From: Phycicoccus elongatus Lp2
GTDB lineage: Bacteria; Actinomycetota; Actinomycetes; Actinomycetales; Dermatophilaceae
Assembly (NCBI RefSeq): GCF_000367525.1
Contig: NZ_HF570956.1
Coordinates: 999,775 to 1,034,884 of the forward strand
Length of the DNA: 35,110 nt
Direction of reading: 5' to 3'
Shown: piece by piece, positions 15,388-23,698 of the stretch
How the letters are laid out: the number at the start of each line of letters is the position of its first letter
Position numbering within the stretch: position 1 is the first letter of the stretch
Made by a program: the position numbers and the translations under genes
Notes under the pieces: generated by a model
Databases searched by the model: none
Told to the model about the DNA's origin: nothing
Seen by the model: the letters and a program-made list of their open reading frames with translations, nothing else

Positions 15388-15987
15388 TCAACTCTTCTTG
15401 AGGCCCTGAATGGTCCCTGCGCGGGGTCTACTGTTGTAGTACCGACCGTTGAAACGCCCATCCGCGTAAATGCGCAATTCCGCTGTGCCGCCATGATCGC
15501 CCATATCCGAGTCTGCCAAGGCGGGATTGACCCGGTTTGCATAAACATAGGTGAGGCAGGTCGCTGAGCCGTCGGATTGAACTGACCCCAGCGCGGACGT
15601 GGATACAGACGTACTCGTTCCACTTGCAACCTCCATCTCGACCTTCATATGAGTCCACGTTTGCCGAACACGTAGCACAACGTCCCTTTGAACTGATTGT
15701 CCTGCAATGTCCCTGAAGGTGCTTGACAGTTTTCCCTCGTAGGTTCCAGACGAATCTGGGATGCCGACAACTCCCATTCGAGAGAGCACCGGCCACCGCC
15801 ACAAATAGCGATCAAATACGTGAAAGAGCAGTGTGAATACTGCAGCGAGGGAGGGAGCGCTGACTAGCCATTCGGGCCACGAGTACCTCGATGTAAGCGT
15901 GGTGATAGACCAAGCGCACACAACTGCGATGATCGCCATTGTCGAGTATATGCCGACGCGTGATTCATTGGTTGAGTATGGGTGCAT
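15388..15987 (-). CDS. cap15: Cap15-like CBASS effector: two TM segments plus beta-barrel sensor
   Basis: 199 residues. Two hydrophobic segments at about 12-31 (IYSTMAIIAVVCAWSITTL) and 41-59 (LVSAPSLAAVFTLLFHVFD) precede a soluble all-beta domain (about 75-195) with SSGTYEGKLSSTF, RVRQTWTHMKVEMEV, CLTYVYANRVNP, the signature HGGTAELRIY and FNGRYYNSRPRAGTI. This matches Cap15, which binds a cyclic nucleotide through the barrel, oligomerises and disrupts the inner membrane to abort phage infection. The neighbouring CD-NTase ends three bases upstream. AGGAG lies directly against ATG 15987 with no spacer, so initiation probably depends on termination of the upstream gene. GC is near 54% by eye, well below the flanks. 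Confidence 0.85.
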   Translation of the reverse strand: MHPYSTNESRVGIYSTMAIIAVVCAWSITTLTSRYSWPEWLVSAPSLAAVFTLLFHVFDRYLWRWPVLSRMGVVGIPDSSGTYEGKLSSTFRDIAGQSVQRDVVLRVRQTWTHMKVEMEVASGTSTSVSTSALGSVQSDGSATCLTYVYANRVNPALADSDMGDHGGTAELRIYADGRFNGRYYNSRPRAGTIQGLKKS

Positions 15988-15990
15988 CTC

Positions 15991-16860
15991 CTAGTAGGCC
16001 TCCCACAATGCGTCGAGAATCTCTTGCGCCACAGACACACTGAAGCCACCAGGATCCGTAGCGAAGAGGTCATGTATTCCATCGCACGACTTAAACGACG
16101 CCTTGGACGAAACTCTCAACCAGGAAAGCACTTCTAAGAGTCGACGAGAATCATCCGCAATGAATCTACTGCTTGGAACGTTGTAAACCATGCACTCGAG
16201 CAAGTAACCCGGGGCTATTCCGTCGCGCAGCATTCCATTCCGCACCGCACGATTGCGTAGGCGCTTGACTTGGCGAACGGTCGCTTTGTATGTCTTGCTG
16301 CATTCAGCGTTTTTCGCTTGGCCATTCTTGATATGCTCCTTGGGGAAGTTGACGATCTGTCCACCGCGAAGCGGATGGATTGCTATGCCCTCGACAAAGC
16401 CAGCTGATATATCGCTGTTAGGGCCTGGGTAGTGCCGGTATTGCAGACACGGCACGACATCTGCATCGACATACCCTGGGGCAGCATCAACAGTGATGCA
16501 TTTGTTGCGGGAGTGCACCCGCGATTGCCCGTAGTACTGAGACAGGGCACTCAAGACTTCCGCCCGCAGGTCCGACTCGGTGAAGGTTGCAGCTGGAAGA
16601 GCATCCCACCTTGCCTGCTGGGAAGAACTTAGTCGACTACGAGAGCCTTGGAAAGTCCTCTTCGTCATCACTACAATGTCAACGTCCGAGTCAGCTCGGA
16701 TGTTTGTCGCATTAGCATATGAACCCTGCAAGAAAATCTCGACGTTGTAAGCGCTCTCCAAGATTGCAAGTGCCCTCTTAATTGAGGAGTACGTGTTCTT
16801 TGCCGTGACGTCTGAACCGGCAGCGGTCCAGTCGCGGCGCTCTTGAGGCGTGGAAGCCAC
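15991..16860 (-). CDS. CD-NTase (cGAS/DncV-like nucleotidyltransferase) of a CBASS system
   Basis: 289 residues, starting at GTG 16860 (GGGGG seven bases upstream). The nucleotidyltransferase core is plain: FLQGSYANATNIRADSDVDI (residues 43-62) with G46-S47 and metal-binding D59 and D61, and the third acidic residue D134 in VDADVVPCLQY. The rest is helical, as in CD-NTases. Such enzymes make cyclic di- or trinucleotides on sensing phage. Being followed by a Cap15-like effector at a 3-base spacing, with no Cap2/Cap3 or HORMA genes, makes a minimal type I (short) CBASS. The clade and product cannot be fixed by eye. It lies 76 bp downstream of hsdR on the same strand and has an intermediate, lower GC than the RM genes. 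Confidence 0.88.
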   Translation of the reverse strand: MASTPQERRDWTAAGSDVTAKNTYSSIKRALAILESAYNVEIFLQGSYANATNIRADSDVDIVVMTKRTFQGSRSRLSSSQQARWDALPAATFTESDLRAEVLSALSQYYGQSRVHSRNKCITVDAAPGYVDADVVPCLQYRHYPGPNSDISAGFVEGIAIHPLRGGQIVNFPKEHIKNGQAKNAECSKTYKATVRQVKRLRNRAVRNGMLRDGIAPGYLLECMVYNVPSSRFIADDSRRLLEVLSWLRVSSKASFKSCDGIHDLFATDPGGFSVSVAQEILDALWEAY

Positions 16861-16936: not shown

Positions 16937-19900
16937 CTATGAACCTCCTCCTGCGCCGAGGCCGAAGAATCGTTCGAAGAACTCTGTCAGTCGGCTCAGC
17001 ACGCGCTGCTTCTTCTCGGTGCGGCTCCCGTCACGTGAGAAGCGTGACACTGGCGGCAACACCTTGGTGATCGCAGTACCTGTTGTCTGGACACCACCGT
17101 CGCGGAAGGCTGAGTCGATGAAGTGACGCGTTTCAGAGGGCTTGAGGTCCTCATCGTCGATGATGGCGGCAAGTTCGGCTTCTTTACGTGCAGCGATGAA
17201 GGCTTGCCACTCGTCGTCAACGCTGCCACTGGGGGAGACGCTGTCGACGAAGTCTTCGATAAGGTCGCGCTTGTTGCGGAGGCTCGGGCTGGCGTCGACG
17301 GCGCGCCTGATCTCGGCGCGAATCTCCTTATCGTCACCGTCGCCGTGTTCGGCGCGGTACTTCTGGACGAGCATGAGGATGTAGTCGACGTTGATCTCGA
17401 CTTGCTTGATGAGCTCGATCTCGAAGACGACGTCGTCGACGATCGACTCCTTCTCGGGCATCGTGTCTTTGCGGAACTCCGCGTAGAGGTCCAGGTAGAC
17501 GCTGCGGTAGTCCTGGTTCTGACGTTCGGTGAGCATCTCGTTACCCTCGAACTCGTCGAACGAGGTCAGGATGTTCTGTAGCCGAAGGATGGCCCCGAAG
17601 AGCTTGATGAACTCCTTCTGCGCCGCTTCGCTCTCGATGACCTGCCCGAGCGGGAACTGAGCCAATAGCTTGTCGACGGTCTCGGTGTACTCCTGGTAGT
17701 AGTCGCCGTAGGGCTTGAGGACAACGATGCCTTTGGCGTCCTTGTTGCCAAACAGGGCGATGGCATCGTTGGTCTCCTCCTCGAGATCACGGAAGGTCAC
17801 GATGTTGCCTGCCACCTTGACCGAGTTGAGGATTCGGTTGGTGCGGGAGAACGCTTGGATCAGGCCGTGTGACCGCAGGTTCTTATCGACGAAGAGGGTG
17901 TTCAGCGTGGTCGCGTCGAAGCCAGTGAGGAACATATTCACTACGATGACCAGGTCGATCTCGCGGTTCTTCATCCGCAGCGACAGGTCTTTGTAGTAGT
18001 TCTGGAAGCGATCGGCTGATGTGTCGTAGCTCGTGCCGAACATGTCGTTGTAGTCCTGGATCGCGTCCTCAAGGAAGGCGCGTGCATCGCCTGACATCTC
18101 CGAGGTGTCGAAGTCTTCTTCGTCGAGCGCCCCATCCTCCACCTCGGCGTTGGCGGCGTAGGAGTAGATCAATCCCACCTTTAGCTGGCGATCCGGCGGC
18201 AAGTCCTCCTGCTGGAGCTGGAACTGGTTGTAGTACATCCTGGCCGCATCGATGGATGCTGTTGCGAACAGTGCGTTGAAGCCCTTGACCCGCTTCGCTT
18301 GCTTGAGCTCGTCGATCGCACCTCGACGCTGGCCCGCCATCTCGGCCACATTAGTGATGATCGAGTGGGTGTAGCCGCTGGCCCGCTTCGTCTTCTGGTC
18401 GAAGTGCTTCAACGTGTAGGCGACGACTTCCTTGATGCGTTTGGTGGACAGCAGTGCCCGCTCGCGATCGATAGCAGAGACCTGCTTGTCTTCGAACGTG
18501 CCGACCTTGACAGTGCTGATGTAGTCAATCTTGAACGGGAGCACGTTTTTATCGGTGATGGCATCCTTGATGGTGTAGGTGTGCAGCTTCTCGCCGAACG
18601 CCTGTTCAGTGGTGCGCAGGTTGACGTTGCCGCCGGTTCCAGCATTGGCCGAGAAGATGGGGGTCCCGGTGAAGCCGAACAAGTTGTACTTCTTGAACGC
18701 CTTGGTGATCGCGGTGTGCATATCGCCGAACTGCGAGCGATGGCACTCGTCGAAGATGATCACGACATGACCGTCGAAAATCGAGTGGCCCTTGTTGGCG
18801 TTGATGAGCGTAGCGAGCTTCTGGATGGTCGTGATGATAATTCGCGCGCTCGGGTCTTCGAGCTGCTTCTTCAGTACGCGCGTCGACGTGTTTGAGTTGG
18901 CAGCGCCCTTCTCGAAGCGGTCGTACTCTCGCATCGTCTGATAGTCGAGATCCTTGCGATCGACGACGAAGAGCACCTTATCGACCGGCGCGAGCTTGCT
19001 CGCCAGCTGCGCAGTCTTGAAGCTCGTCAAGGTCTTGCCCGACCCTGTGGTGTGCCAGACGTAGCCGCCAGCCGCCACGGTGCCAAGCTGCTTGTAGTTG
19101 GTAGACACGTCGATCTTCTGCAGGATCCGCTCGGTGGCGACGATCTGATACGGCCGCATGGCCAGCAGCATCCGGTCGCTGGTCAGGACGCAGTATCGGG
19201 TGAGGATGCTCAGGATGGTGTGCCTCGCAAAGAATGTCTTGGCAAAGGCGCTCAGATCCCGAATCGGCTTGTTAGTCGCGTCGGCCCACCAGGAGGTGAA
19301 CTCAAACGAGTTGGAGGTCTGCCTGCCGCGCCTCTTGCTACTGGACGCGTCGCTGATGTGCTGACGACGTGTCGTGTTCGAGTAGTACTTTGTGAGCGTG
19401 CCGTTGCTGATCACGAACAGCTGGACATACTCAAAGAGCCCAGAGCCGGCCCAGAACGAGTCCCGCTGGTAGCGGTTGATCTGGTTGAATCCTTCGCGGA
19501 TGTCGACACCCCGGCGTTTGAGCTCGACGTGGACCATAGGAAGCCCGTTGACCAGGATGGTTACGTCGTAGCGATTTGCGAATTGGCCGCCCGCGTCGCC
19601 GCCCCTCGTCACCTCGTACTGGTTGAGCACCTGCAGTCGGTTGTTGTGGATGTTCTTCTTGTCGAGTAGCGAAATGTTCTTCGTCGAGCCGTCGTCCCGC
19701 AGCAGCAGTTGGACGTGGTCCTCTTGAATGCGCACGGTCTTCTCGACGATGCCGTCTTTCTTGCCCGCGATCCGCTCGTTGAAGAAGCGGTCCCACTCAG
19801 CGTCCGAGAACGTGACGTGGTTGAGGGTCTCGAGCTGGGTGCGCAGGTTCGCCACAAGATCCGCCTCAGAGGTGATCGTCAGGCGTTCGTAGGCCTGCGA

Positions 19901-20047
19901 CTCAAGGAGGGCGATGAACTGATTCTCTAGTTGGGCTTCCGACTGGTAGCCGGTACTGTCACTGGGCTCAGGGACGTACTCAGCGACGACAGTGCTCTCG
20001 GCGCTGAGCGCGATGGGGTCGTACTTACGTGCAGATGCATCACTCAT
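16937..20047 (-). CDS. hsdR: Type I restriction endonuclease subunit HsdR
   Basis: 1,036 residues, normal for the motor/nuclease subunit, which translocates DNA and cuts unmodified DNA at a distance. The N-terminal PD-(D/E)xK nuclease shows D161 in NRYDVTILVNG and E175-x-K177 in HVELKRRG, followed by the Q-x3-Y helix (INRYQ). The superfamily 2 helicase core has P-loop TTGSGKT (about 333-339), DECH (433-436) in IIFDECHRSQFG and FGFTGTPIF. The start ATG 20047 overlaps the hsdS stop by four bases (ATGA). It is the last RM gene before the CBASS pair. No defects seen. Confidence 0.95.
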   Translation of the reverse strand: MSDASARKYDPIALSAESTVVAEYVPEPSDSTGYQSEAQLENQFIALLESQAYERLTITSEADLVANLRTQLETLNHVTFSDAEWDRFFNERIAGKKDGIVEKTVRIQEDHVQLLLRDDGSTKNISLLDKKNIHNNRLQVLNQYEVTRGGDAGGQFANRYDVTILVNGLPMVHVELKRRGVDIREGFNQINRYQRDSFWAGSGLFEYVQLFVISNGTLTKYYSNTTRRQHISDASSSKRRGRQTSNSFEFTSWWADATNKPIRDLSAFAKTFFARHTILSILTRYCVLTSDRMLLAMRPYQIVATERILQKIDVSTNYKQLGTVAAGGYVWHTTGSGKTLTSFKTAQLASKLAPVDKVLFVVDRKDLDYQTMREYDRFEKGAANSNTSTRVLKKQLEDPSARIIITTIQKLATLINANKGHSIFDGHVVIIFDECHRSQFGDMHTAITKAFKKYNLFGFTGTPIFSANAGTGGNVNLRTTEQAFGEKLHTYTIKDAITDKNVLPFKIDYISTVKVGTFEDKQVSAIDRERALLSTKRIKEVVAYTLKHFDQKTKRASGYTHSIITNVAEMAGQRRGAIDELKQAKRVKGFNALFATASIDAARMYYNQFQLQQEDLPPDRQLKVGLIYSYAANAEVEDGALDEEDFDTSEMSGDARAFLEDAIQDYNDMFGTSYDTSADRFQNYYKDLSLRMKNREIDLVIVVNMFLTGFDATTLNTLFVDKNLRSHGLIQAFSRTNRILNSVKVAGNIVTFRDLEEETNDAIALFGNKDAKGIVVLKPYGDYYQEYTETVDKLLAQFPLGQVIESEAAQKEFIKLFGAILRLQNILTSFDEFEGNEMLTERQNQDYRSVYLDLYAEFRKDTMPEKESIVDDVVFEIELIKQVEINVDYILMLVQKYRAEHGDGDDKEIRAEIRRAVDASPSLRNKRDLIEDFVDSVSPSGSVDDEWQAFIAARKEAELAAIIDDEDLKPSETRHFIDSAFRDGGVQTTGTAITKVLPPVSRFSRDGSRTEKKQRVLSRLTEFFERFFGLGAGGGS

Positions 20048-21216
20048 GCGGGGAGCTCCTCGAAGGTGAGGAGCTTGTCACGAAAGTGCTCATACTGCTT
20101 GCGTCGAGCCGAGATCTCGGCCGGAAGCCCGATGCTCAGATCGGTCGATAGAGCATCGAACTTGTCGAGGATTGACGAGATGCGACGCTGCTCCTCAAAG
20201 CTCGGCAACGCCACCGGATATCTGAGAAACATCGGCCGTCGCAGTGATGTCACGGAGGCATGCACCGACGTTCGCTCAAGGTAGCGGGTAAAATCAGCCA
20301 CAAGGTAGTGGTAGAGGTATCGAGCGTCAATCTGTTCCCCGGGAACAATTCGGTAAGCGCGTTGGTGAAGCGCATATCGCCCGGACGCGAAGTGGAAAAC
20401 CTTTCCAACTCCGACGCCATCGCCTGCTGTTATGATCGCCGTCTCGTCGAAGTCGAAGGAGTCGAGCCGGAAAGGCTCGCGGCCACGCGCATAGAAGACA
20501 TACTCTCCGTCAGCGACGGCGTCCTTCGTGTCATGACTGCCGGTCCCAATGGTCGCGACATCACCAAGGAAGACTCGTTCGACGTCGTCATCGAAGGTCA
20601 GGATGTTGGACCGATAGTAATCATACTGACGTCGTCGCGCTTCCAGTTCCGCTTCCAGTTGCGCTTCCATTTCCGCTTTCAGCTGACTGAATTTATCCAA
20701 TATGCCCGCGATCTCTCGCTGCACTTCGAGAGGCGGCACTGGGAGTCGATAAGCTCGTACGCGACCGTCAGGGATCGCGGGGTAATTGCCTTCGACCTGA
20801 TTAGCTTCGACGTAACGACGGAAATCGTCGGATCCAAGCATGTGAGCCAGGAACCCAGTCAGCATGACGGAGGTGTCGGGGCGAAGGACACAATATCCCG
20901 TACTCGCGATCTGGTGGCTATATTGATCTGGAATGACTGCCCAACGCATTTGTGCAGGTCGAGTCGTCGCGAAGATCACGTCGCCAGCCTCCACGATCTG
21001 TTGAGCCCGACTCGGCGCGTTACCCTCGGCGATGGTTGTAGTCACGCCAATCCTGTGAGTATTACGATCGACGGACGACAGGTCAATGTACTGGAAAGGG
21101 GCCCCGGCCGTGCTAGGCCACTTTACCTTCGACGCTTTCGATGTAACATCACCGACTGTCCTAAATGCAACACCATCCGGGCACTTATCCGCGATCAATT
21201 CATCAATTCGGCTCAT
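20044..21216 (-). CDS. hsdS: Type I restriction specificity subunit HsdS
   Basis: 390 residues with the usual two target-recognition domains (about 1-175 and 210-350), each followed by a conserved helix: ILDKFSQLKAEM ... RRRQYDYYRSNILTF and ILDKFDALSTDL ... ARRKQYEHFRDKLLTF. Each TRD reads half of a bipartite DNA site; the helices set the spacer. The central helix contains four tetrapeptide repeats, KAEM-EAQL-EAEL-EARR (residues 180-195), coded by 12-bp DNA repeats. It overlaps both neighbours by four bases (the Mrr gene upstream, hsdR downstream), so its dosage is tied to theirs. Confidence 0.94.
   Translation of the reverse strand: MSRIDELIADKCPDGVAFRTVGDVTSKASKVKWPSTAGAPFQYIDLSSVDRNTHRIGVTTTIAEGNAPSRAQQIVEAGDVIFATTRPAQMRWAVIPDQYSHQIASTGYCVLRPDTSVMLTGFLAHMLGSDDFRRYVEANQVEGNYPAIPDGRVRAYRLPVPPLEVQREIAGILDKFSQLKAEMEAQLEAELEARRRQYDYYRSNILTFDDDVERVFLGDVATIGTGSHDTKDAVADGEYVFYARGREPFRLDSFDFDETAIITAGDGVGVGKVFHFASGRYALHQRAYRIVPGEQIDARYLYHYLVADFTRYLERTSVHASVTSLRRPMFLRYPVALPSFEEQRRISSILDKFDALSTDLSIGLPAEISARRKQYEHFRDKLLTFEELPA
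20637..20684. repeat. Four imperfect 12-bp tandem repeats inside hsdS
   Basis: Units on the plus strand: GCGCTTCCAGTT, CCGCTTCCAGTT, GCGCTTCCATTT, CCGCTTTCAGCT. They keep the reading frame and encode four-residue helical repeats in the central spacer of HsdS. Confidence 0.9.
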
Positions 21217-22130
21217 GCGAAGAAGTCCTCATCAATCTCCACGATCGTGTAGGTCTCACTGGCCTGGACTCCGACGCCAAACTGGATCATGAGATCCGTG
21301 AGGCGTTTGCCGTCGATCAGCACAATCCGCGTTGGCGAAGAGGCAACGTAGTCACGAGCGCCCTGCGAGAAGTAGCTCGTTGTCATGAACACGCCGCTGT
21401 CAGCTCGGCCGTGCAACGCGCCCACGAAGCCTTGGACATCGGGACGACCGACACCGTTGTCGCGGGCGTAGCGTTTCGCCTGAATGTAGACCCGGCTCAG
21501 TCCGAGGATGTCTTGGTCGATAACACCGTCGATCCCACCATCATTCGTCAGCTGAGTGACTGAACCACTCCCGTTCGCTCCGCCGTAGCCCATTGCCACC
21601 AGTAGCTCGACGACCGCCTCCTCGAAGAAGGCGGGATCTTTGTCTTGCAGGCGTTGTAGCAGCTCATGAGCGACCTCAGCATGGATTCGTTCGACGCCGT
21701 TCTGCACCTGCTCGATCGGAGTCAACGCTGATGTCTCGGCGGGCGCCTCCGCAGGGCCCGGCTTCCTCGTGGCCGTCGCTACGTATGGGCGTATAGGCGC
21801 GGACGGATCTTCCCCAAGTGCCCTGATGTCACGCTCGAGGACGCCGTCCGGGAACTTCTCCAAGAGGTGCCGGCCAGCGTCGGTGATGGTGTAGTTGCCC
21901 CGCGTCGGCCGTGCGAGCGCACCGACGTTCGTGAGGAACGACAGTCCCCAGCCAATGCGGTTTTCGTAGGTCGGCTGCCCGGAAGCCAACGTCTCTTTCA
22001 TCTGCGCCTCCGTCAGTCCGCATTCTCGTCCCACTAGTGGTCGAAGATCGCGCCGCGTGCGCACGACGCCGTCGCTGAGGACGCGAAGTGTCGGCGTCAT
22101 GAACGCCTCCCATGTGGGCATGTCGCTCAT
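21213..22130 (-). CDS. mrr: Mrr-type restriction endonuclease embedded in the hsd operon
   Basis: 305 residues. The N-terminal third resembles the Mrr_N winged helix (MPTWEAFMTPTLRVL, YTITDAGRHLL near 80-90). The C-terminal Mrr_cat nuclease domain starts with FFEEAVVELLVAMGYGG and shows the PD-(D/E)xK variant: D197-G-G-I-D201 and Q217-A-K219. Mrr proteins cut methylated DNA (type IV restriction). Here the gene overlaps hsdM (upstream) and hsdS (downstream) by four bases each, so it is translated as part of the type I operon. It might protect against DNA carrying foreign methylation; an additional or regulated role with HsdMS is possible but untested. Length is normal and motifs are intact. 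Confidence 0.88.
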   Translation of the reverse strand: MSDMPTWEAFMTPTLRVLSDGVVRTRRDLRPLVGRECGLTEAQMKETLASGQPTYENRIGWGLSFLTNVGALARPTRGNYTITDAGRHLLEKFPDGVLERDIRALGEDPSAPIRPYVATATRKPGPAEAPAETSALTPIEQVQNGVERIHAEVAHELLQRLQDKDPAFFEEAVVELLVAMGYGGANGSGSVTQLTNDGGIDGVIDQDILGLSRVYIQAKRYARDNGVGRPDVQGFVGALHGRADSGVFMTTSYFSQGARDYVASSPTRIVLIDGKRLTDLMIQFGVGVQASETYTIVEIDEDFFA

Positions 22131-23698
22131 TGGTTGGTGCCCTCCAAAACGGCCACGATCTCATCGATCGAGGCGCGAAGTTGCTGTTGACGGACGACAA
22201 TCCGAGCAATCTCGGCGTTGAGCTCAGCTATGTCGACAACCTCGCGCAGATCCTCTTGCTCAACATAGGAGGAGACGGCGATGTTGTAGTCGTTGGCCGC
22301 GATGTCTTCGTTCGAGACGAGCTTGGTGAAGTGGTCAATGTCCTCGCGACCCATGAAGCGGTCGAGGATCTTGTCTTGATTTGCGGGTGTCAACTTGTTC
22401 TTATTGCCTTGACGAGTGAACTCGGAGCTGGCGTCGATGAACAGAACCGCACTGTCTCTCTTTGACTTCTTCAGGACGATGATGCAGGTAGCGATGGTGG
22501 TGCCGAAGAACAGATCGGGTGGCAGTTGAATGACGGCGTCGATGTAGTTGTTGTCGATCAGGTACTGGCGGATCTTGCGTTCTGCGCCACCACGGTAGAG
22601 CACCCCCGGAAACTCGACGATTGCCGCAGTGCCATTGACGGCCAGCCAGCTGAGGATGTGCATCGTAAAGGCGAGATCGGCCTTGGACTTCGGCGCCAGC
22701 ACGCCAGCCGGAGCGTAGCGCGGATCGTTGATCAGCAGCGGGTTGCTGTCTCCGTCCCACTTGATCGAGTACGGAGGATTGGACACGATCGCCTCGAAGG
22801 GCTCGTCGTCCCAGTGCTGCGGATCGGTCAGTGTGTCGCCGTGACGGATCTCGAAGTTCTCGAAGTTCACGTCATGCAGGAACATGTTGATGCGCGCCAG
22901 GTTGTATGTGGTCAGGTTGATCTCCTGACCGTAGAAGCCGTTGCGGACGTTGTTCTTGCCGAGCACCTTTGCGAACTTCAGAAGCAGCGACCCCGAGCCA
23001 CAGGCAGGGTCATACACCTTGTTCACCGTCTTCTTGCCGACGACAGTGATCCGCGCTAGCAACTCGGAGACCTCTTGAGGTGTGTAGTACTCACCACCGG
23101 ACTTGCCGGCCTGTGAGGCGTACATCTGCATCAGGTACTCGTAGGCATCGCCGAAGAGATCGATCGTCTGGTCGGTAAAGTTGCCGAGCGGCAGATCGCC
23201 GATGGCGTCGAGCAGCTTGACTAGCTTCTCGTTGCGCTTCGCAACTGTGTTGCCGAGTTTTGTGCTGTTGACGTCAAGGTCGTCGAACAGACCTTTTAGG
23301 TCATCTTCGCTGTCAGTGCCGAGAGCCGAGCCTTCGATGTTCTTGAACACCTTTTGGAGCGTCTCGTTCAAGTCCGGGTTGGCCGCTGCGTGCTTGCGGA
23401 CATTAGCGAACAGTTCCGAGGGCAGGATGTAGAAGCCCTTCTCGTTGACTGTGTCCTTGCGGCCGAACTCGGCGTCCTCGTCATCCAGCGCCGCGTAGTC
23501 GAAGGTCGCATCCCCGGCCGCACGCTCCTCCTCGTTGACGAACGCTGTCAGGTTCTCGGAAATGAAACGGTAGAAGAGCATCCCGAGCACGTAGCTCTTG
23601 AAGTCCCAACCATCCACGCTGCCTCGCAGGTCGTTCGCGATCCGCCAGATCGTCTTGTGCAGCTCGGCTCGTTGAGCTTCTTTAGTACTCGGGGTCAT
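22127..23698 (-). CDS. hsdM: Type I restriction DNA methyltransferase subunit HsdM
   Basis: 523 residues. HsdM_N helical domain (HKTIWRIANDLRGSVDGWDF, residues 14-33), then the N6-adenine methyltransferase core with motif I DPACGSGSLLLKF (230-242) and catalytic NPPY (307-310). SGGEYYTPQEVSELL (200-214) is an HsdM hallmark. It modifies the host's recognition site together with HsdS. It is first in the operon: ATG 23698 follows AAGAGGAG seven bases upstream, and a consensus -10 box precedes it. The 3' end overlaps the Mrr gene by four bases. Confidence 0.96.
   Translation of the reverse strand: MTPSTKEAQRAELHKTIWRIANDLRGSVDGWDFKSYVLGMLFYRFISENLTAFVNEEERAAGDATFDYAALDDEDAEFGRKDTVNEKGFYILPSELFANVRKHAAANPDLNETLQKVFKNIEGSALGTDSEDDLKGLFDDLDVNSTKLGNTVAKRNEKLVKLLDAIGDLPLGNFTDQTIDLFGDAYEYLMQMYASQAGKSGGEYYTPQEVSELLARITVVGKKTVNKVYDPACGSGSLLLKFAKVLGKNNVRNGFYGQEINLTTYNLARINMFLHDVNFENFEIRHGDTLTDPQHWDDEPFEAIVSNPPYSIKWDGDSNPLLINDPRYAPAGVLAPKSKADLAFTMHILSWLAVNGTAAIVEFPGVLYRGGAERKIRQYLIDNNYIDAVIQLPPDLFFGTTIATCIIVLKKSKRDSAVLFIDASSEFTRQGNKNKLTPANQDKILDRFMGREDIDHFTKLVSNEDIAANDYNIAVSSYVEQEDLREVVDIAELNAEIARIVVRQQQLRASIDEIVAVLEGTNQ

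Follow-up and report, generated by a model that had tools for sequence, protein, structure and literature searches.

Tetrapeptide repeats in the specificity subunit HsdS have been called characteristic of type IC restriction-modification systems (PMC10030836), and the number of their units alters the gap within the recognized site in EcoR124, in EcoDXXI hybrids and in NgoAV (PMC3874165, PMC6789123). According to PMC3874165, EcoR124I has two units and an N6 gap, EcoR124II three units and an N7 gap, and the type IC enzyme EcoprrI, whose site is CCA N7 RTGC with the adenines 8 bp apart, three units as well. NgoAV strains with one LEAT unit methylate GAC N6 TGC, those with two units GAC N7 TGC (PMC6789123). 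In PMC3874165, three units are said to appear to be the optimum; how the zipper accommodates a change of number is described there as unclear, with the suggestion to try altering the partner helix in compensation.

Here, we describe such an array in Phycicoccus elongatus Lp2, located in a stretch of 35,110 nt (NZ_HF570956.1, positions 999,775 to 1,034,884; in the following called the window). It is an ordinary member of the known repeat class, and the spacer ruler itself is textbook knowledge. The window HsdS resembles that of EcoprrI in its register, in its three units and in a clearly related TRD2, but its TRD1 is different, and the TAEL units of EcoprrI (L007) are perfect at the DNA level. 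In EcoR124I/II, too, the tetrapeptide number in helix D1 sets the gap. The HsdS profile matches the EcoR124 S chain 7bst_A over its full length (9.3e-68), leaving a gap of four residues where the units lie; in the same register this chain has two units, whereas the window has three, which have diverged. The depositors named 7bst_A EcoR124II; its two TAEL units correspond to the number stated for EcoR124I in PMC3874165. In NgoAV, the repeat number in the middle of HsdS likewise tracks the gap in methylomes, but the unit is LEAT, its number varies among strains of one species, and truncation also changes the specificity (PMC6789123). The nearest relative is the HsdS of Microbacterium sp. USTB-Y (L003), which is 74% identical, shares both TRDs and also has three units; unlike the window, its units are perfect at the DNA level and its hsdM and hsdS are not separated by an Mrr gene. 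A literature search, which left subscription journals mostly uncovered and is therefore weak evidence of absence, yielded no survey of actinobacterial unit number, of the constancy of helix D2 or of single E. coli alleles occurring with both two and three units.

The Hsd operon and its setting

Four genes follow each other on the minus strand with a four-base overlap at each junction: hsdM (22127..23698; 523 aa; Pfam N6_Mtase 3.2e-114, HsdM_N 1.8e-20), a gene for an Mrr-like type IV endonuclease (21213..22130; Mrr_cat 2.6e-31, Mrr_N 1.7e-21; PADLOC mREase_IV 1.3e-67), hsdS (20044..21216; 390 aa; Pfam Methylase_S 5.5e-28, PADLOC Specificity_I 3.3e-92) and hsdR (16937..20047; 1036 aa; EcoR124_C (PF12008) 3e-77, HSDR_N 1.7e-45, SWI2_SNF2 2.3e-55). 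With the type I domains of hsdM, hsdS and hsdR all present together (Pfam, PADLOC), the system is, judged by sequence, type IC-like, because HsdR carries an EcoR124_C domain and HsdS contains tetrapeptide units. Its HsdM is 56% identical to the HsdM of the EcoprrI plasmid, a high value, yet below one published rule of thumb, by which HsdM proteins are ~70% or more alike within a type I family (PMC10030836).

EcoprrI is known for its embedded prrC (PMC3874165), whereas the window has the Mrr-like gene between hsdM and hsdS, overlapping both by four bases. At least nine other loci have a relative of this gene adjoining hsdS (L012, L013, L023, L028, L040, L084, L088, L101, L104), and in four loci for which longer stretches were available (L064, L065, L075, L077) hsdM comes next. 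This arrangement raises the question whether the Mrr-like product may watch methylation by its own operon. Directly downstream of hsdR lies a CBASS-like pair consisting of a CD-NTase gene and a Cap15 effector gene (15388-16860).

A search for a second hsdS in the 3.17-Mb genome gave one full match and one weak partial match elsewhere, and the longest inverted pair between 15300 and 23800 is 33 nt long at 73%. An invertible, phase-variable locus with several hsdS genes (TRD inversion, second cassette) was thus rejected, with neither a second full hsdS nor long inverted repeats.

The repeat array in helix D1

Within hsdS, the approximate limits of TRD1 are 20710..21150 on the minus strand, with 72% identity to the TRD1 of L003 over 153 aa and a weaker match to 5ybb/3okg; TRD2 extends approximately over 20212..20577 (minus strand) and is EcoprrI-like. 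Between window residues 75-385 and the EcoprrI HsdS the identity is 49%, and residues 215-331 contain long stretches that are almost the same in both. The central conserved helix D1 (LDKFSQL...RRRQY; 20623..20700, minus strand) and the C-terminal conserved helix D2 (LDKFDAL...RRKQY; 20092..20169, minus strand) are the two conserved segments, and the length of D2 equals that of a D1 with three units.

We aligned the translated array with EcoprrI and five actinobacterial HsdS and found a common register, LDxFxxL followed by n units of xxxL and then xxRxxQY; in EcoprrI this segment reads LDKFTAL-TAEL-TAEL-TAEL-NMRKKQY. In the window n is three, with the units KAEM, EAQL and EAEL of 12 bp each (20644..20679, minus strand). 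The following EARR (20632..20643, minus strand) aligns with NMRK of EcoprrI and is part of the constant post-repeat segment. The original prediction of four in-frame 12-bp units, KAEM/EAQL/EAEL/EARR, at 20637-20684 is thereby corrected in two respects: the array with its 12-bp period does lie in hsdS and the four peptides are in frame, but EARR is not a unit, and the span is 5 bp off, so that its translation leaves the frame and runs into a stop, the in-frame stretch being 20632-20679. Its assignment to the EcoR124 type of central-helix repeat holds, as the register is shared with EcoprrI and 7bst_A.

The repeat is conspicuous in the window at large. Tandem Repeats Finder (TRF) assigned its highest scores to this array (78 at period 24 and 69 at period 12; the next best elsewhere is 52), and the self-match at lag 12 reaches 29/36 at 20637 and 30/36 at 20634, the latter being the window maximum, compared with at most 23 in 30 first-order Markov windows of equal length. 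An AlphaFold model of HsdS computed from a three-row alignment had a mean pLDDT of 40 and was unusable.

The copies have diverged, as had been noted originally: neighbouring units agree at 9/12 and 11/12 bases. The longest exact run at lag 12 measures 11 bp, compared with 33 in the median three-unit array. Among 30 three-unit arrays, that of the window is the fourth most decayed. In the window hsdS, the length of the array was kept while its DNA units wore. With a worn DNA repeat a change of number should be rarer, and we infer that the rate of change in the window hsdS should be lower, a view that fits the slower rate originally proposed for diverged copies.

Unit number among relatives and constancy of D2

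HsdS proteins were collected by a scan of named genomes, from plasmids and by profile searches of the window's order (matches in 58/396 genomes), its phylum (21/396) and four families (16/199, 4/60, 32/200 and 4/65). A family search with a single protein instead of a profile gave matches in 3/186 genomes, and no HsdS relative was found in a search of viral contigs. The profile matched 99 distinct ORFs, of which 74 were anchored automatically and seven by a relaxed anchor, giving 81 HsdS. The 18 left out are L043 (two units by eye, without the LDxF anchor), L115, two pieces of L117, the second piece of L097 and 13 distant or partial HsdS.

Among these 81 HsdS, the window included, 5 have one unit, 45 two, 30 three and 1 four. 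Unit number is thus far from constant among relatives, in agreement with the original proposal of an array class able to change. The exceptional four-unit case is L047 (G917:C5), the longest array seen, with four perfect EAEL units, for which the published rule would give a 9-bp interval. All 74 automatically anchored HsdS have D1 lengths of whole four-residue units (16, 20, 24 or 28 residues). D2, however, shows one fixed spacing of 24 residues in all 74, the length of a D1 with three units. This constancy fits the remark in PMC3874165 on three units as an apparent optimum, and the compensating change in D2 suggested there was not seen in this sample of 74 HsdS.

The number is equal in 45 and different in 49 of the pairs that share TRD1 at ≥60%, and equal in 43 and different in 31 of those that share TRD2 at ≥60%. 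To a quick HsdM tree 72 of the 81 rows could be assigned (nine had no good enough HsdM match in their stretch). It requires at least 22 changes of number, a parsimony figure from a tree with some rows on long branches, compared with a mean of 25.7 for shuffled labels, and values as low occurred in 17/200 shufflings; unit number is therefore poorly predicted by descent. Well-supported branches force fewer changes, 7 for the two-unit and 6 for the three-unit label.

Homogenisation of arrays at the DNA level

Arrays whose peptide units are all identical were perfect at the DNA level in 52/56 cases, compared with 0.86 expected from the codon use of the same genes and never more than 8 in simulations. 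Neighbouring EAEL units were identical at the DNA level in 74/82 comparisons, compared with a fraction of 0.231 for units of different arrays. Shared ancestry accounts for part of this homogeneity; one unit sequence is common to 21 arrays, and 14 different perfect unit sequences were seen. That a single change recurs throughout all units of an array is, however, a sign of turnover, be it through slippage or through unequal exchange.

Change of unit number together with domain exchange

Several pairs of loci combine a shared recognition domain with different unit numbers. Downstream, L012 (three units) and L013 (one unit) have 98.4% identity over 4.6 kb; their TRD2 is fully shared and their TRD1 different. 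Their near-identity suggests a recent transfer of the operon, as judged from these loci; the host genomes are coded to different families. TRD1 is shared at 98.7% between L006 (two units) and L034 (three units) and at 94% between L003 (three units) and L086 (two units), and in both pairs the homology is lost about 30 bp past the units. Pairs sharing one TRD at ≥80%, with the other unlike, differ in number in 6/14 cases, pairs sharing both at ≥80% in 0/2 and pairs sharing both at ≥50% in 5/15. Because the homology ends where the TRDs begin, these pairs are no evidence of a crossover inside the repeats.

Change of unit number within alleles of E. coli

To follow single alleles, we searched 5,426 E. 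coli genomes with 436-bp stretches that span the array and reach into TRD-specific sequence at either end. Three alleles (L122, L126, L127) were searched at a limit of 1e-85. As a control, a copy of L003 one unit shorter gave 97.248% identity with one 12-base gap; it was reported at a limit of 1e-90 and missed at 1e-170. Stricter searches (1e-165 to 1e-170, matches of ≥99%), which are blind to the loss of a unit, returned 3 records for L123, 24 for L125 and 145 for plasmids. Of the five E. coli query arrays, four are perfect and one contains a single mismatch.

All three re-searched alleles include records one unit longer or shorter. L126 gave 62 records covering ≥80%, and among the 60 matches listed, 34 have three units (≥99.5%) and 26 two (424 bases, 97.2%). 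The 49 records of L127 comprise 43 with two units, 4 with three (448 bases) and 2 with one (424 bases). For L122, 324 records were obtained, of which 174 have three units according to the stricter search; among the 14 matches listed of the 150 others, 13 have two units and one is an 88.8% match.

We fetched 13 loci and compared their flanks over the 2060 bp that precede the array and the 3900 bp that follow it. In the L122 allele, the two-unit loci L134-L136 and the three-unit loci L138 and L139 agree without mismatch in both flanks, with the three-unit L141 differing from them by one base. A second L122 background, four bases different, again occurs with two units (L137) and with three (L140), and these two loci agree without mismatch; recombination may have moved one form between the two backgrounds. 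In the L127 allele, the two-unit L142 and the three-unit L143 and L144 agree without mismatch, and the one-unit L145 has two mismatches. L146 of the same allele has a different junction, at which a loss of 12 bp joins imperfect copies; an IS3 lies in its hsdM and would explain the mismatches seen upstream. Altogether, ten of the fetched loci are, within their background, free of any other mismatch over 6 kb. Unit number thus changes without any other change, and does so on more than one background. The sources of L134-L141 and L142-L146 are several countries and hosts.

Discussion

We consider it highly probable that the window array is a type IC spacer ruler in which a change of length is possible, but rarer after wear. 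Helix D1 with its three tetrapeptide units would, together with the antiparallel D2, set how far apart the two recognition domains lie, and with it the interval between the two methylated adenines, for which we predict 8 bp, the value of EcoprrI and EcoDXXI. Slippage or unequal exchange would alter the unit number in steps of 12 bp, and the gap would move by 1 bp with each step. In nature, perfect arrays change number within one allele; the units of the window have drifted apart at constant length, leaving change possible yet presumably rarer. By analogy with EcoprrI, we predict a target with the right half RTGC and an m6A interval of 8 bp (N7), since TRD2 is EcoprrI-like and there are three units under the published N6/N7 rule. 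That unit number would affect the target of the window enzyme in the first place is likewise inferred.

A chance similarity of low complexity, which the divergence of the copies might suggest, is refuted: all 30 Markov windows lie below the array, and its register is common to 81 HsdS. Nearly as improbable is a purely structural coiled-coil repeat, whose unit number would have no effect on specificity. In its favour, one tetrapeptide unit corresponds to about one helical turn, and A, E and L favour helix, but D1 varies whereas D2 never does, the DNA is homogenised beyond what the peptide needs, and the number alters the site in EcoR124I/II and in NgoAV (PMC3874165, PMC6789123). The loci that share one TRD and differ in number, with homology ending ~30 to 60 bp from the array, would fit a third explanation, in which the number changes mainly by crossover in D1 when recognition domains are exchanged and not by slippage; at 80%, the contrast between one-TRD and both-TRD pairs points the same way. 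At ≥50%, however, some both-TRD pairs differ as well, the end of homology does not locate a crossover within the repeats, and in the E. coli alleles the number varies although both TRDs and the 6 kb of flank are unaltered. With these variants within alleles the crossover explanation lost weight and a slippage switch gained, and we now regard it as quite unlikely that crossover is the main route.

Such a switch might also operate frequently in the window strain itself, where gain and loss of units would produce mixed N6, N7 and N8 methylation. The 11-bp exact match at 12-bp spacing and the common change within alleles of E. coli would be in line with this, and L146, in which imperfect copies were joined, indicates that wear may not stop change and speaks against a low rate. 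Set against this are the worn copies of the window, as opposed to the perfect or nearly perfect E. coli query arrays, and the equal number in the nearest relative, L003. We therefore consider frequent switching unlikely, and favour the spacer ruler with rare change for the window.

For the actinobacterial relatives, the survey adds that unit number ranges from one to four, that descent is a poor predictor of it and that the partner helix D2 is untouched. Tentatively, type IC arrays might represent a graded form of contingency, in which lineages with perfect units circulate one-, two- and three-unit forms and lineages with worn units lock one gap, D2 staying at the three-unit length throughout; we hold this possible, but doubtful. 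If true, a single hsdS gene would provide for two or three different gaps in the target. The E. coli records do contain the same allele with two and with three units, and a methylome or defence range given to an hsdS allele may therefore fit only some of its carriers.
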